In this document: positions 10,059 to 42,628 of the stretch, piece by piece
Layout: every line of letters starts with the position of its first letter
How positions within the stretch are numbered: position 1 is the stretch's first letter
Source of the DNA: Chloroflexota bacterium
GTDB taxonomy: Bacteria; Chloroflexota; Limnocylindria; Limnocylindrales; CSP1-4
Length of the DNA: 64,000 nt
Assembly (NCBI GenBank): GCA_021783095.1
Contig: JAJXUG010000008.1
Location: forward strand, 31,531-95,530
Direction of reading: 5' to 3'
Notes under the pieces: generated by a model
What the model was told of the DNA's origin: nothing
Database searches by the model: none
What the model saw: the letters and a program-made list of their open reading frames with translations, nothing else
Program-made: the position numbers and the translations under genes

Positions 10059-10134
10059 TCCGGCGTAGCTCAGTTGGTAGAGCGGGTGACTGTTAATCAC
10101 TTGGTCGTAGGTTCGAGTCCTACCGCCGGAGCCA
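10059..10134 (+). tRNA. tRNA-Asn (anticodon GTT), CCA encoded
   Basis: Cloverleaf: acceptor TCCGGCG/CGCCGGA, anticodon loop CTGTTAA, T-arm GGTTCGAGTCC. Confidence 0.97.
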
Positions 10135-10165
10135 GCTACCTCTGGGTAGCACGTTTACCCAGGCG
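10123..10165. repeat. Candidate att direct repeat, left copy (tRNA-Asn 3' end plus downstream)
   Basis: CCGCCGGAGCCAGCTACCTCTGGGTAGCACGT matches 23216-23247 with one mismatch; similarity continues to CAGGCG. Confidence 0.75.
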
Positions 10166-11402: not shown

Positions 11403-14400
11403 ATGTCACGGTCTCGGCGTCATCAGGTCCTTGCGCTCGCGCTCAGCCTGGTGCTCAACGCGTCGATATCCGCCATCGCGCCGGTGGCCCTGGTGAGGGC
11501 GGACACGCCATGCGGCGACGTGCTGGTCATCTACGCACGCGGTTCGACCTATCAGCCCAACGGATCCGACTTCCAAGCGTTCTACGGCTCCGATGCCCAC
11601 CCCACGGCGGGGATCGTCCCGCACGTCAACCGCAACGATGTCGCGATCAACTCGTATCAGCTGGGCGACAACGGCGGCTATGGCGGGTTCCGGTACGACG
11701 CCGTGGGCGACATCGCGACGCTCGCCTCGAGCGTCCTCCCGTTCCTGCCGGGCAGCGCGTACGCCAACAGCGTCGCCCAGGGGGTGGGCGAGCTCCACGC
11801 CTACCTCGCCGACCGAGCAGCGGCCTGCCCGGGCGAGGTGTACGTCCTCGGGGGCTGGTCGCAGGGAGCCCAGGTGGTCGGCACGGCGCTCGAGGGCCTC
11901 GACCGGAGCGTCCGCGACCGGATCGCCTACACGGCCCTGTTCGGCGACCCCAAGCTTGACACCGGGAACGTCCGGGCCCCCTTCGGCACGACCTCCTTCT
12001 GGTCCGCCTGTACGCCGGCCACGTCCAGCCCTCCCTGGAAGCGCTGGGACGACTGCGCGATCGCCGGCGGATACCTGGAGGCGCGGACCCCGTACGTCCC
12101 CGACGACATGCGCCTCCGGGTCGGGTCGTGGTGTGAGGAGGTCCACCCGCTGAACCTCCCGGGCGCGGGCGACGGCGTCTGCGACGGCTTCACCGGCGAC
12201 CTCATCGCCTCCACGTTCGGTCTCCTGGGGCAGCCGCACTACCACGCCGCCTACCTGCAGCCCGGCGGCGGCATGGACCAGGCGGCGGTGGAGGTCGCGG
12301 AGACGTTGCAGGTCTTCCTGCCTGCACACGCCGCGAGCTTCGACACCAGCAGGTTCGCCCTCGTGGGCGGGCCCGCGGGGGCCGACCTGGCGATCGTCTT
12401 CGACACGACCGGCAGCATGTGGAACGCGATCGCCGACGCGCAGGCACAGGCGACGGCGGTCGCCCAGCAGTGGCTGACCTTCTTCCCCGGCGGCCGGGTC
12501 GCGCTCGTCGACTTCAAGGACCAGGGCGACCCCTACGTCGCCCGCGTCGACCTCGGCCTGACCGGCAACATCGGCGACTTCCAGAACGCCGTGAACCAGC
12601 TGACCGCCACGGGCGGCGGGGACACGCCGGAGGCCCAGCTCAGCGGCGTCATGGCCGCCCTCGACGGGCTCGACTGGAAGGCGGGCGCCACCAAGGCCGA
12701 GATCGTCATCACCGACGCCCCCGGCAAGGACCCGGAGCCGGTGACCGGGTACACGCGCGACCAGGTCGCGCAGCACGCCCGCGAGATCGACCCGGTCGCG
12801 GTCTACGGCGTCAACGTCGGCACGGACCAGTCCGCGACCGACTTCTTCGGGCCGCTGACCGCGGGCACGGCCGGCCAGGTCCTCGTCGTCCAGCCCGGCC
12901 AGACCCTCGGGGACGCCTTGTTCGCGGTCCTCAACATCGTCCATCTCAAGCCCGTCGCCACGCTCAACGACGCCTACATCGGCGAGACCGGGACGGCGAT
13001 CCACTTCAGCGCCGAGGGCTCCTTCGACCCCGACGGCGAGCTCGTCAGCTACGAGTGGGACTTCGACAACGACGGCACCGTCGACGCCACGACGACCGAC
13101 CCGTTCGTCGACCACCTGTATCCGGGGGACTTCAACGGGGTCGCCTCGGTCCGGGTCGTCTCGTCTGACGGCGGCTCCGCCATTGCGACCGCGACCGTCC
13201 GGGTCATGACCGAGGCCTCGCTCGCGGCGCTGATGCCCGCCGCGCCGACGTCGGCCGCGGCGTCCGCGACAGGGCCTAGCCAGGTCACCCTGACCTGGAC
13301 GCCGGCGGCCTCCGACCGCGCGGTCGCCTACCTCGTCACGCTCGCCGACGGCACCCCGCTCGCCGGGGTGCTCGCGGCCGACCCGCACTCGGTCGTCGTC
13401 GACGGCGTCGACTTGGGCTCGCCGGTGAGTTTCCGCGTCGTCGCCCAGAATGACTACGGCAACAGCGCCGCGGCGGAGACCGCGCCGGTCGGCGGCGCTG
13501 GCTGGGGGCCGAGCGTCCGCGTGAATGATGTGGCGGGGAGCGCGATTTCGAGCGCACCAAGCGTGGCCCTCGGCCCCGACGGGGCCGGGTACGCGGTCTG
13601 GCCCGACTCCCGCGGGACGAGCCAGGACGTCTACTCCTCGCGACGCGACCAGGCCAGCGGGGCGTGGTCGGCGAACGTCAGGGTCAACGACGACACCGGC
13701 ACGGCCCGCCAGTCCTCGCCCCGGATCGCCGTCGACGGCTCCGGCAACGCCTACGGCGTCTGGGACGACACGCGCAACGGCGCCACCAACAGCGACATCT
13801 ACTTCAGCAAGCGCCCGTCGGGCAGCGGGATCTGGGGCGCGAACCTCAAGGTCAACGACGACACGCAGACGGCGCTCCAGATCGCGCCGTCCATCGGCGT
13901 GACCTCGTCCGGCGTGGCCACGGCGATCTGGATCGACCTTCGCAAGAACAAGAGGAACCTATGCTCGTCGACGCTCCCGGCGGGCGGCTCCGCATGGGCC
14001 GCGAACCTGCAGATCACCGGGAACCAGACGTCGAACAAGGCGAGCCCCGACCTCGCAGTGGGGGCGGACGGCACCGCCTACGCCGCGTGGGCCGACGACC
14101 GGAACGGCAACAACGACATCTACTTCTCGAAGCTGACGCCGGGAGGAGTCTGGTCGGCGAACGTCAAGGTCAGCGACGACCCGGACAGCGCCAGGCAGGA
14201 GCAGCCGAGCGTGGCCGTCGACGCGGCCGGCAACGTCCTCGTCATCTGGGTCGACTACCGCTCCGGCGACTATAATTCGGGCCTGGCCGAGGTCCGGGCG
14301 AGCCGCCTCGCCGCAGGCACTTCGACCTGGTCCGCGAGCGTCGCGGTTGCCGACGCGACCTCGAAACCGCTGAGGACGGACCTCGCGATCCGGCCTGACG

Positions 14401-14615
14401 GGCGGGCGCTCGCCGTATGGGAGGACGCGGCGACCGGGCAGTACGAGATCCGCTCATCGGAGCGTGATCCGTCCTCGGGCTCGTGGACCGCGCCCGTCGC
14501 GGCGAGCGAGGTCCCGGGATCGGACCTCGACCCGCAGGTCGCGTACTCCACGAGCCAGGCGCTGCTCGTGTACCAGAATGGAAGCGACATCTACGCCAGG
14601 AGGTCGGCCAACTGA
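11403..14615 (+). CDS. Secreted multidomain protein: cutinase-like esterase, von Willebrand A, PKD, fibronectin III, beta-propeller-like repeats
   Basis: GGWSQGAQVVG (cutinase serine motif), VFDTTGSMWN (vWA MIDAS), SAEGSFDPDGELVSYEWDFDNDG (PKD), VTLTWTPAASDRAVAYLV (Fn3), repeated VND..R..P.IAVD..G.AY.VW.D.RNG..DIYFSK. Confidence 0.85.
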   Translation: MSRSRRHQVLALALSLVLNASISAIAPVALVRADTPCGDVLVIYARGSTYQPNGSDFQAFYGSDAHPTAGIVPHVNRNDVAINSYQLGDNGGYGGFRYDAVGDIATLASSVLPFLPGSAYANSVAQGVGELHAYLADRAAACPGEVYVLGGWSQGAQVVGTALEGLDRSVRDRIAYTALFGDPKLDTGNVRAPFGTTSFWSACTPATSSPPWKRWDDCAIAGGYLEARTPYVPDDMRLRVGSWCEEVHPLNLPGAGDGVCDGFTGDLIASTFGLLGQPHYHAAYLQPGGGMDQAAVEVAETLQVFLPAHAASFDTSRFALVGGPAGADLAIVFDTTGSMWNAIADAQAQATAVAQQWLTFFPGGRVALVDFKDQGDPYVARVDLGLTGNIGDFQNAVNQLTATGGGDTPEAQLSGVMAALDGLDWKAGATKAEIVITDAPGKDPEPVTGYTRDQVAQHAREIDPVAVYGVNVGTDQSATDFFGPLTAGTAGQVLVVQPGQTLGDALFAVLNIVHLKPVATLNDAYIGETGTAIHFSAEGSFDPDGELVSYEWDFDNDGTVDATTTDPFVDHLYPGDFNGVASVRVVSSDGGSAIATATVRVMTEASLAALMPAAPTSAAASATGPSQVTLTWTPAASDRAVAYLVTLADGTPLAGVLAADPHSVVVDGVDLGSPVSFRVVAQNDYGNSAAAETAPVGGAGWGPSVRVNDVAGSAISSAPSVALGPDGAGYAVWPDSRGTSQDVYSSRRDQASGAWSANVRVNDDTGTARQSSPRIAVDGSGNAYGVWDDTRNGATNSDIYFSKRPSGSGIWGANLKVNDDTQTALQIAPSIGVTSSGVATAIWIDLRKNKRNLCSSTLPAGGSAWAANLQITGNQTSNKASPDLAVGADGTAYAAWADDRNGNNDIYFSKLTPGGVWSANVKVSDDPDSARQEQPSVAVDAAGNVLVIWVDYRSGDYNSGLAEVRASRLAAGTSTWSASVAVADATSKPLRTDLAIRPDGRALAVWEDAATGQYEIRSSERDPSSGSWTAPVAASEVPGSDLDPQVAYSTSQALLVYQNGSDIYARRSAN

Positions 14616-14794
14616 GGTTGCGCGAGCGACCTACGGCTTCGCGAGGGCCGAGTTTCGCGGGTTGCCGGACATGCGGTCACCCCGCCCGCTCGAGCCACCT
14701 CTCGCTGCCGACTAGTGCGAACTTGAGCCTTCCTGAGCGGACGCTTGAGGTCGGTTATGGCGGTTCGACTTCTGTTCAAGCCGCCGACCCTCGG

Positions 14795-15520
14795 TTACGG
14801 CGACGGTCGGGACCGCGGTCGAGCCGCTCTCATGCGCACCAGTGCCCCGCGGCTGCGGTCGCGCTTCAGCGCCGCACGGCAGTCAGGGCAGAGGCGCTGG
14901 ACGGGCGACGTGCGCTGGACGACCTGATGGCAGCGAGCGCACTCGAGCAGCGCGACCTTCAGCCACTCTCGTGAACGGCGGGGGAGCGGGACCGCGATGT
15001 CGCTGCCGACCGTGCCCAGGCGATTCAGCACACGGCCCGCCCCGGCCCGCCGGAGCCAGCCGCTTACTGCGTCCGACCGGTTAACACCCGCACCGGTCGT
15101 CATGTTCCAGATCGCCACGGCCTTGAGCTCTCGGCTGTCGACGTCGACGCGCTCGAAGAGGTCGCGTACGGTCGCGACTCTGGTGTCGAGCGGGGCGCGT
15201 TCCAGGATGCCCTCGAACTGCGCAACAATCTCGTCGACCATCTTCTTCGTGATCCTGAGTGGCCGTTCTGCCAGCCGGAGGTCGTTCAGGCGCGCCGTGG
15301 CCGCCGCCAGTTCGGCACTGACCGTCTCGATCTCGAGGGTGATCCTGTCGGCCGCCCGTGGCCCGGCACCGCGTAGCGCGCGCCTCAGGTTCGCGTCCTC
15401 CTGCTCGAGCTTGCGCACCTGAGCGCGCGCTCGGTCGAGGTCAGGACCGCGATGCTCGGCACGGAGTCGGATGTCCTCGTTGAGCAGCGTGACCATCTGG
15501 CGGATCGCGTCCGGCGGGAA
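14795..15520 (-). pseudogene. Large serine recombinase remnant: coiled-coil plus C-terminal zinc-ribbon tail (copy 1), catalytic domain absent
   Basis: DLDRARAQVRKLEQEDANLRRAL...KKMVDEIVAQFEGILERAPLDTRVATVRDLFERVDVD...GWLRRAGAGRVLN...LLECARCHQVVQRTSPVQRLCPDCRAALKR. Confidence 0.7.
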
Positions 15521-15523
15521 CGG

Positions 15524-15610
15524 CTCTATTACCGCTGCCTTGCTCACTGCGACAGGCCGCATGTCCGGGCCGATCACCTTGAGGCCGGGGTCCTGGATCT
15601 CATCCGCAGC
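15524..15610 (+). pseudogene. Serine recombinase zinc-ribbon fragment, head-to-head with copy 1
   Basis: LYYRCLAHCDRPHVRADHLEAGVLDLIRS in high-GC3 frame on + strand. Confidence 0.5.
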
Positions 15611-15639
15611 ACGCTCTTCACGGAGTCGTCACCGGCCGC

Positions 15640-22890: not shown

Positions 22891-22989
22891 GACCGGAAAG
22901 TCAATGGTGGAGGGGCAATGCCTGTTGAGCCTCCGACCTTTGCTCGCCCGCCCGCGGCCTTGATCAGGGCGGCAGTCATGTTCGTCGTC

Positions 22990-23247
22990 GAGCGGCCCTC
23001 GCGCGGGTGACGGCGTCGAGGCTTCGACTTCGCTTCAGTGCCGCTCGGCAGTCCGGACAGTAGCGTTGTACGGGCGAGCGGCGCTCGACCACCTGATGAC
23101 AGCGCTCGCACTCGAGAAGGGCGACGGTCAGCCACTCGCGTGAGCAACGGGGGAGAGGCAGGGCGATCTCGGTGGTGGTCGTGCCCCGCGCATTCAGTAC
23201 ACGCCCGGCTCCCGCCCGCCGGAGCCAGCTACCTCCGGGTAGCACGT
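22990..23247 (-). pseudogene. Serine recombinase C-terminal tail, copy 2, truncated at the tRNA-Asn-like sequence
   Basis: SWLRRAGAGRVLNARGTTTTEIALPLPRCSREWLTVALLECERCHQVVERRSPVQRYCPDCRAALKR, homologous to copy 1 only from WLRRAG onward. Confidence 0.75.
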
Positions 23248-23258
23248 GTCCGCAGGCG
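23216..23258. repeat. Candidate att direct repeat, right copy
   Basis: CCGCCGGAGCCAGCTACCTCCGGGTAGCACGT, one mismatch to 10123-10154. Confidence 0.75.
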
Positions 23259-40268: not shown

Positions 40269-40856
40269 TTAGCGGCTCCGGCGCATCGCCTCCCCGATCA
40301 GCAGGGCGCCCAGCGCGATGACCGCCACCGGCCAGACGAGATCCCAGTTGATCGGCACGTAGTCGCGGATCAGGAACCACGCGCCCAGCACCACGAGCAC
40401 GATGCCCGCGATGATGCCAGCCTGGTCACCCCGGTGCCGCACGTCCCAGTCGCCGCTCGGCTGGTTGGGCACGCCAGCTGGGCCGGTCTGGGTGGCGCCG
40501 CTCGGCGCACCCGTCGTCCCGCCGGTCCACGCTCCGCCCGGGGCGCTGCCGCCCCAGTTGCCGCCGGGCGTGCCCTGGCCCCACAGCGGCGATCCCGCCT
40601 GCCCGGCGCCCCACCCGCCGCGCTGCGTCCCGGACGGCGTCTGGCCCCGTCCACGCGGCGTCCACCCGGGCGGTGCGTCGGGCACCACCACGGCCATGAC
40701 GATGTACAGCACCACGAACACGCCGCCCGACATCAGCGAGAGCAGCACCCACGCGATGCGCACGATCGACGGGTCGAGTCCCATCCATGCCGCGATGCCG
40801 GCGCAGACGCCAGCGAGCGACCGGTCGGTCGTCGACCGGTAGAGGCGGTCATCCAC
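40269..40856 (-). CDS. PspC-domain membrane protein
   Basis: LYRSTTDRSLAGVCAGIAAWMGLDPSIVRIAWVLLSLMSGGVFVVLYIVMAVVVPD. Confidence 0.9.
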   Translation of the reverse strand: MDDRLYRSTTDRSLAGVCAGIAAWMGLDPSIVRIAWVLLSLMSGGVFVVLYIVMAVVVPDAPPGWTPRGRGQTPSGTQRGGWGAGQAGSPLWGQGTPGGNWGGSAPGGAWTGGTTGAPSGATQTGPAGVPNQPSGDWDVRHRGDQAGIIAGIVLVVLGAWFLIRDYVPINWDLVWPVAVIALGALLIGEAMRRSR

Positions 40857-41847
40857 AGCCGTCCTCCGGATCCAGGGTCACCGTGCCGAGATTGGCCGAG
40901 ACGTTGAGGTCGATCCGCGCGGAGGCGGTGGCCCACGGGCCGCGCGTCCAGATGTTGCCGTTCTGCACCAGGCCGCGCGCGGCGAGGTTCGTCGTCCCGA
41001 GCGGATGGTCGTCCACCCTGATCCGGAGGGGCACGCCCGCCGGGGCGCACACCCGCACGGTTCCCGCGTTGGCCGACAGCGACCCGCTCAGCGTCCCCGA
41101 GGGGGAGGGGAGCGCGACCGTGAGCGATCCTGCATTGACCGAGCCGGTGACCGAGGTGGTGCCCAGAGCGCCCGTCAGATCGACGTGGGCGTCGGCGGCG
41201 TTGACCGAAGTCGCGAACGAGGTGACGTGCATCGCGCCGAGCGCCAGCCGTGAGGAACCCGCGTTGACCGAGAGCGAGAGGCTCAGATTGGGGTCCGCGG
41301 GCAGCGTGAGCAGCCACTTCGAGGCGAGATTGCCCACGCCGAAGCCGTGCTGGTCGCCCATTCGGAGCCGCAGCCTGTCGCTCGAGGACGCCTCCACGGC
41401 GGGCGTGCTGTCGCCGCTCGGCCAGGCGACCGCCCAGCCGCCGCCCGGCGCGCCCGAGACGGTCAACTCACCGCAGGTCACCGAGACGTCAACCGACGCC
41501 CCCGAGGCGAGCGACCCACTGAGACCCGGGACGCTCGACGGGCTCGCAGGCGTGTTGCCGATCCCGCACAGCGCGAGCGAGGAACCGGGTCCGATGCCGG
41601 CCGCGACCAGCCCGCCGGCCATGAGACCGAACGTCACGGCCACCACGACGCCGCCGAACACGTCGAGCACGGTGTGGCGAAGCGCCAGGCCCAGCCCCAC
41701 GCCGATCAGCAGCAGCGGCCAGAGCTCCAGCGAGCGGCGGGCCGTCCCGGCGTCGAGCACGCCGCCCTGCACCGCCAGCGGCACAACCCCAAGGGCGACG
41801 AAGAACGCACCCCAGCCCAGTAGCCCCCGATTCACGCGCATCGTCAC
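40849..41847 (-). CDS. LiaI/LiaF-like membrane protein with C-terminal adhesin-like (toastrack/DUF4097-like) domain
   Basis: N-terminal TM repeats LWPLLLIGVGLGLAL, then NLSLSLSVNAGSSRLALGAMHVTSFATSVNAADAHVDL. Confidence 0.65.
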   Translation of the reverse strand: MTMRVNRGLLGWGAFFVALGVVPLAVQGGVLDAGTARRSLELWPLLLIGVGLGLALRHTVLDVFGGVVVAVTFGLMAGGLVAAGIGPGSSLALCGIGNTPASPSSVPGLSGSLASGASVDVSVTCGELTVSGAPGGGWAVAWPSGDSTPAVEASSSDRLRLRMGDQHGFGVGNLASKWLLTLPADPNLSLSLSVNAGSSRLALGAMHVTSFATSVNAADAHVDLTGALGTTSVTGSVNAGSLTVALPSPSGTLSGSLSANAGTVRVCAPAGVPLRIRVDDHPLGTTNLAARGLVQNGNIWTRGPWATASARIDLNVSANLGTVTLDPEDGCG

Positions 41848-41956
41848 CTCTCCCGGCTCTCGGCCGCCGACATCATCGCGCAGCGCACGCGTGCCGACGG
41901 GTGACGAGGGTCACATCCTCGGGGCCGGGGGGCCCGCTGTTGATAGCCTAGGACGC

Positions 41957-42628
41957 ATGCCCAACCCCACCCGGCGGTTCGAGGCCGTGCTGTTCGACAT
42001 GGACGGGGTGCTCGTGGACAGCGAGCACCGCTGGAATGACGTGCGGATCGCGTACGCTGCGGCGCACGGGCGCTCGTGGGGCATCGACGACCAGCACGCG
42101 GTGATGGGCGCGAATTCGATCCAGTGGGCGACGACGATGCGCAATCGGCTCGCGCTCGACGACATGCCGGTGGACCGGATCCTGACGGCGATCGTGGCCG
42201 GGGTCGTAGGCGAGTTCCGGAGGGGCAGCGTCCCCGTGGTCCCTGGCGCGCCGGCGGCGGTCCGCAGGATCGCGACCCGGTGGCCGGTCGGCATCGCGTC
42301 GTCGTCGCACCCCGACGTCATCGCCGCCGCGCTCGACCTGCTGGGTCTCCACGGCGTGTTCGGCGCGGTGACCTCGTCCGACGAGGTGGCGCACGGCAAG
42401 CCGGAGCCCGACGTGTACCGGCTGGCCGCCCAGCGTCTGGGTGCGGCGCCCGAGCGGTGCCTGGTCGTGGAGGATTCGACCAACGGCATCCTGGCGGGCA
42501 AGGCTGCCGGCGCCTACGTCGTGCTGATCCCGAACCCGACGGTGCTCCCCGCGCAGCATGCGGTCGAAGCCGCCGACGCGATCATCGAGCGGATCGAGGA
42601 CCTTGACCCGGACGCGCTGCCGGCCTGA
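41957..42628 (+). CDS. HAD-superfamily hydrolase (beta-phosphoglucomutase-like)
   Basis: AVLFDMDGVLVDSE; GKPEPDVYRLAAQRLGAAPERCLVVEDSTNGILAGKAAG. Confidence 0.93.
   Translation: MPNPTRRFEAVLFDMDGVLVDSEHRWNDVRIAYAAAHGRSWGIDDQHAVMGANSIQWATTMRNRLALDDMPVDRILTAIVAGVVGEFRRGSVPVVPGAPAAVRRIATRWPVGIASSSHPDVIAAALDLLGLHGVFGAVTSSDEVAHGKPEPDVYRLAAQRLGAAPERCLVVEDSTNGILAGKAAGAYVVLIPNPTVLPAQHAVEAADAIIERIEDLDPDALPA

Follow-up and report, generated by a model that had tools for sequence, protein, structure and literature searches.

The window (the whole 64,000-nt stretch of Chloroflexota DNA that was analysed) is very probably the footprint of elements with a large serine recombinase, in which attP lies inside the integrase gene (int) and the gene is split at tRNA-Asn. 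In the circular element, int would read through attP and encode an enzyme of ~595 residues, composed of a canonical serine integrase of ~515 residues ending in WLRR (the N-part) and a zinc-finger-like tail of ~80 residues. At GG/CC, the ~52-bp attP would recombine with the tRNA-Asn 3' end, which would be rebuilt from the WLRR codons of the element. The N-part, with the catalytic, Recombinase, Zn-ribbon and coiled-coil regions, would then remain beside the tRNA, with a stop codon usually taken from the tRNA antisense strand, and the tail would be left at the opposite end of the element, adjoining the old tRNA 3' end. Comparison among relatives supports the target, the crossover, the gene split and the rebuilding of the tRNA from the WLRR codons, and a circular intermediate and a full-length N-plus-tail enzyme are presumed from them.

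The target, tRNA-Asn (GTT), was located by ARAGORN at 10059-10134 (+ strand) with its 3' end CCGCCGGAGCCA at 10123-10134, and the tRNA-Asn pattern had a single match per genome in G000 and most relatives. The exact 14-mer CCGCCGGAGCCAGC, which at 10123-10136 is the tRNA-Asn 3' end plus GC, was found three times in the window, all on the + strand (10123-10136, 15047-15060 and 23216-23229, the positions given in an earlier note on this DNA), as compared with 0.01 expected by chance and with three or more copies in 0 of 100 shuffles. The earlier note had read the stretch as the tRNA-Asn 3' end plus GC; the tRNA 3' end does lie in the recombinase tails, but what is informative is the 12-nt block CCGCCGGAGCCA and not the full 14-mer, the GC beyond it belonging to element sequence in copy 1 of the recombinase and to the flank in copy 2. 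In copy 1 this 12-nt core was assigned by sequence identity to 15047-15058 (+ strand), and it encodes WLRR on the - strand.

Integrase searches were performed in 61 genomes and then in 177 genomes of the class (33 with matches). In 17 genomes, all from a single Chloroflexota class, an N-part of ~515 residues runs antiparallel into tRNA-Asn, and the N-parts stop at the residue where the tails begin. The WLRR codons are the tRNA-Asn 3' end, and their identity with the tRNA, put forward earlier as a point to check in full-length homologs, was observed as TGGCTCCGGCGG in all 23 distinct N-part ends with fetched loci, no full-length homolog having been found. Eighteen of these ends (17 genomes) enter tRNA-Asn and five enter a tail, including copy 1 of the window. 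The tRNA antisense strand gives a stop directly after WLRR in 17 of 18 copies, and the tRNA of G034 has CAG where the stop otherwise stands; the identity block therefore ends at CC and it is the tRNA that provides the stop. As for the tails with a visible 5' edge, about 20 have the tRNA 3' end before them and, beyond it, varied flanks, five follow an N-part, and seven follow unrelated DNA with homology starting at GG.

If the tails are right ends of elements at tRNA-Asn, genomes without the insertion should have tRNA-Asn followed directly by the DNA found outside a tail. The outside flank of one G123 tail corresponded from the first base to the DNA after tRNA-Asn in G017 (1459 bp, 79%), and that of a second G123 tail corresponded, again from the first base, to the DNA after tRNA-Asn in G030 (1619 bp, 75%). 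A third pair (G085 and G092) agreed, but with different first bases after the core, and the tRNA flank of the window resembled the outside flank of the right end in G003 (82.5% over 63 nt). Judged by these alignments, the two G123 pairs represent clear empty sites. The element boundaries in relatives, with the N-part adjoining tRNA-Asn and tails flanked by empty-site DNA, agree with the earlier proposal of an attP inside the recombinase gene and an attB in the tRNA. A chance match of 12 to 14 nt, with recombinase tails unrelated to the tRNA, could draw on the 12-mer with one mismatch tolerated, which is not rare in this GC-rich window (four matches as compared with 2.7 expected); against it stand the counts of the exact 14-mer, the N-part ends, exact without exception and mostly overlapping tRNA-Asn, and the empty sites joining at the identical base, by which this extremely improbable origin was refuted.

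The crossover was placed at GG on the int strand, i.e. CC at 10123-10124 (+ strand), because, in the seven tails whose flanks are unrelated, homology begins only at GG. The same seven tails, having flanks other than tRNA, were counted against the split-gene reading. Both secondary-site insertions and deletions made from a reconstituted attP were considered for them, and their common GG start favours site-specific recombination. In G123 (L123-L129, L130), about ten tail copies were found over several contigs; in four copies the flanks do not come from tRNA-Asn, and three of these four flanks contain GTTAACCG-like motifs. In G159 (L116 9007-11538), a stretch of ~2.5 kb from tail to tRNA contains little beyond the integrase and a 177-residue ORF, and it is possibly a minimal element, though its tail has a non-tRNA flank.

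The putative attP is a near-palindrome of ~52 bp inside the ORF, with two 25-bp halves around GG, and linked N and C half pairs gave 15-18 of 25 symmetric matches as compared with a mean of 7.5 for random window sites. Judged by the arms and by the crossover read from the flanks, it has the form known for serine integrases, a short near-palindrome centred on a dinucleotide. The outer arms vary by lineage, and the N half equals the C half within a lineage: TACTGAAT was found in most, TACTGCGT in G059 and G159, and TACGTCGAT in one genus (the N half in G012 and G084, the C half in G079), TACTGAATC and TACGTCGAT being arms of differing lineages. The attP-type junction of the window at 15022-15073, with its halves around CC at 15047-15048, had 17 of 25 palindromic matches, and an equally good score was reached by four of 20,000 random window sites. 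Its N half is of the second type (TACTGCGT) and its C half of the first (TACTGAAT), as expected if two different elements had stood in tandem.

In the window, homology to same-genus genomes (blastn against G002, G003, G010 and others) ends at ~10134 and restarts at 40296-41979, which leaves a variable region, or hotspot, of ~30 kb (10135-40295) from tRNA-Asn to the next common DNA. Directly after the tRNA lies flank X (10135-10165, + strand), near-identical to the outside flanks of copy 2 and of the right end in G003. Copy 1 (- strand; ORF 14795-15577) comprises an integrase C-terminal tail past the crossover (14795-15046, matched by the tail profile) and a remnant of the N-part, residues 359-515 (15047-15514; found by tblastn at 55% identity to the G003 N-part). 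It is broken: residues 1-326 are missing, and a fragment of ~105 bp coding for residues 327-361 lies inverted beside the remainder (15527-15631, + strand; tblastn, 63% identity). Copy 2 (22976-23215, - strand), recognized by its ORF and by the repeat and tail-profile comparisons, is a bare integrase tail forming the right end of an element, and its attR (23216-23258, + strand) consists of the core, i.e. the former tRNA 3' end, with flank X after it, a layout also found in G003. The two tails form a direct repeat of 272 nt (73%; 14789-15060 and 22958-23229), and the tRNA flank matches that of copy 2 in a 43-nt repeat (91%; 10123-10165 and 23216-23258); therefore, as had been noted before, copy 2 stops resembling copy 1 at the core, beyond which it is like the DNA downstream of the tRNA.

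The window thus holds decayed remnants only, a mixed N/C junction and an attR without an intact element, and records at least two past insertions, neither of them intact. Counted against the split-gene reading is that the window tRNA-Asn is followed by flank X and not by an N-part, X being present also after copy 2, and one element of another kind, filling the 13 kb from one X flank to the other, was considered. Short inverted repeats stand directly after tRNA-Asn in several genomes (window 10135-10165, L033 and L034; CTGGGTA...TACCCAG in the window, GTTACGGATTACGTAAC in G017). They may serve as operators, or they may be the ends of other elements sharing the site. Between the tRNA and copy 1, the window encodes a predicted secreted protein of 1070 residues (11403-14615) with cutinase-like, VWA, PKD and fn3 domains.

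The catalytic half is absent from both integrase copies of the window, and the enzyme was therefore identified from relatives. The homologous ORF of G003, a genome of the same genus, has 515 codons and ends in SVSGWLRR followed by TAG, a stop that the antisense strand of tRNA-Asn supplies (TGG CTC CGG CGG TAG). Its N-part carries the domains Resolvase (PF00239, 1.8e-22), Recombinase (PF07508, 8.9e-11) and Zn_ribbon_recom (PF13408, 1.5e-9), it resembles the integrase structures of TP901-1 and A118, and the integrase profile PHROG 95 covers N-part residues 10-498. The N-terminal catalytic-serine motif YxRVSxxxQ is present in it, by alignment, as YVRVSTAHQ. By domains and motif, the recombinase is a large serine recombinase (serine integrase), in agreement with the class assigned to it earlier.

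The tail has ~80 residues with a CxxC...CxxC pattern, four invariant cysteines and a basic C-terminal helix, and it did not reach any curated family at the family cut-off. Its AlphaFold model has a zinc-finger-like core (block means of 88-93 pLDDT), and no significant structural match was obtained in fold searches with the copy 1 and tail models; the tail is accordingly described as zinc-finger-like in the model, and no named fold is claimed. dN/dS ranged from 0.15 to 0.37 for N-parts and from 0.13 to 0.51 for tails, rough values with high dS for many pairs, which suggest that coding constraint acts on both parts. Enzyme family, shared core, empty sites, lineage-matched arms and coding constraint are each supported by comparison among the genomes.

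The G003 element has 8,057 bp, and its cargo (L021 6765-12847) includes a ThsB-like TIR protein, a SLOG cluster 2 protein, a second TIR protein (TIR_2) and an HNH protein, by resemblance a Thoeris-like defence set. In G034 (L118 6821-8431), the sole sizeable cargo gene between tail and integrase encodes a 536-residue protein without a Pfam match. The named records with matches were Chloroflexota MAGs and one contig in an Acidimicrobiia-labelled MAG, possibly misbinned, and matches in the rest of the phylum were few and weak. Distant serine recombinases run antisense into the 3' ends of tRNA-Ile or tRNA-Asp in G516 (L143 421-2055) and G256 (L146 1387-2142; L161 1682-3942), and no conserved tail was seen with them; in G256, the tRNA-Asp end is repeated over 24 bp at a distance of 2.2 kb, so that the element would be barely more than the recombinase.

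A complete N-plus-tail gene was found neither in relatives nor among viral contigs, plasmids and phages, the five contiguous junctions all being without the N-terminal half; this, too, was counted against the split-gene reading. With viral contigs, the N-part profile returned a single integrase of 22% identity and window copy 1 returned nothing, and no matches were obtained with plasmids and phages. Circular forms, a search for which the earlier note had called, were not seen; a 4.7-kb contig ending within int (L120) was tried as a linearised circle and rejected, there being no tail in the contig.

Loss of the tail may alter the activity of the enzyme (lock, direction or specificity). There is about an even chance that it disfavours excision until full-length enzyme is supplied; tail scars, decayed N-parts and the absent complete gene would be compatible with a poorly reversible insertion. 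It is tentatively proposed, at less than even confidence, that the enzyme is a serine-recombinase counterpart of the archaeal suicidal integrases, in which insertion into tRNA-Asn removes a dedicated zinc-finger tail which licenses integration or sets direction, the insertion itself switching the enzyme with no separate directionality factor. A split devoid of regulatory meaning, with a truncated N-part that works fully and an attP that merely overlaps the gene, would accommodate the filling of the canonical PHROG 95 profile by the N-part alone, the open N-part ORFs in G003, G123 and G085, and the distant recombinases of G516 and G256 that enter tRNA 3' ends without a comparable tail; it is nevertheless rather unlikely, in view of the many decayed N-parts among integrated copies and of the conservation of the tail (invariant cysteines, dN/dS below 0.52), which requires selection at one stage or another of the life cycle. 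We consider it improbable, too, that the split reverses or retunes the enzyme into an excisionase-competent or site-shifted form, as reported for the altered integrase of phage Mx8, where integration changes the C-terminus and the activity or specificity of the integrase (PMC6070905, PMC4701971). The catalytic domain kept in N-parts and the seven tails at non-tRNA flanks, taken as recombination at other sites, would suit such retuning, but excision is probably rare, given how commonly a tail scar stands without an N-part and given that N-parts decay.

Canonical large serine integrases normally have attP beside the gene, unlike the attP within int described here. The domain order and the near-palindromic attP of ~50 bp are those of TP901-1, A118 and phiC31, with profile matches to TP901-1 and A118 domains. 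In archaeal SSV-type ('suicidal') tyrosine integrases (SSV1, pTN3 and pT26-2), attP lies in int, the tRNA is restored by the element and the gene is split (PMC8371274). The present elements share with them the attP within int, the N-part at the tRNA and the tail at the opposite end, and differ in host (bacteria instead of archaea) and in recombinase class: SSV-type enzymes are tyrosine recombinases with the catalytic residues in the C-terminal part, and serine domains were detected here in the N-part. The SSV-like split suggested earlier applies to the division of the gene at attP, with a difference in what is lost: SSV-type splitting yields inactive halves, whereas here the catalytic part is not cut from the DNA-binding domains and only the tail of ~80 residues is lost.

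Streptococcal rumA ICEs have a serine integrase with the att site inside the gene and a C-terminus changed by integration (PMC4701971). They resemble the present elements in these three respects and differ in that integration disrupts the rumA protein gene and exchanges 3' parts and frames, whereas tRNA-Asn is restored here; no separate conserved tail domain is described there for rumA ICE integrases. Phage Mx8 of Myxococcus xanthus likewise has a bacterial integrase with attP inside int, of the tyrosine class, and on integration its 112 C-terminal residues are replaced by 13 with altered activity (PMC4701971, PMC6070905). In the integration-dependent immunity of mycobacteriophage BPs, attP lies in a gene and integration alters the C-terminus of the protein, which is a repressor and not the integrase (PMC4557955). 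A tRNA-targeting self-splitting serine integrase was not found in the part of the literature covered. The earlier judgement that such logic would be unusual for a serine recombinase agrees with this for the tRNA target, but the rumA ICE integrases are a precedent for the class (PMC4701971). SSV-like logic is supported, and with rumA ICEs and Mx8 as precedents a self-altering integrase is not in itself new.

For serine integrases, mechanistically and in practice, the central question is how direction is controlled. Through the integration reaction, one enzyme apparently occurs in two forms, with and without the tail, by which the role of the tail becomes directly testable. Two unrelated recombinase classes would have converged on one trick, extended here to bacteria with a tRNA target, and a tRNA-Asn-directed serine integrase is provided. 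Surveys in which truncated integrases are dropped, or attP is expected beside int, would misread such elements.
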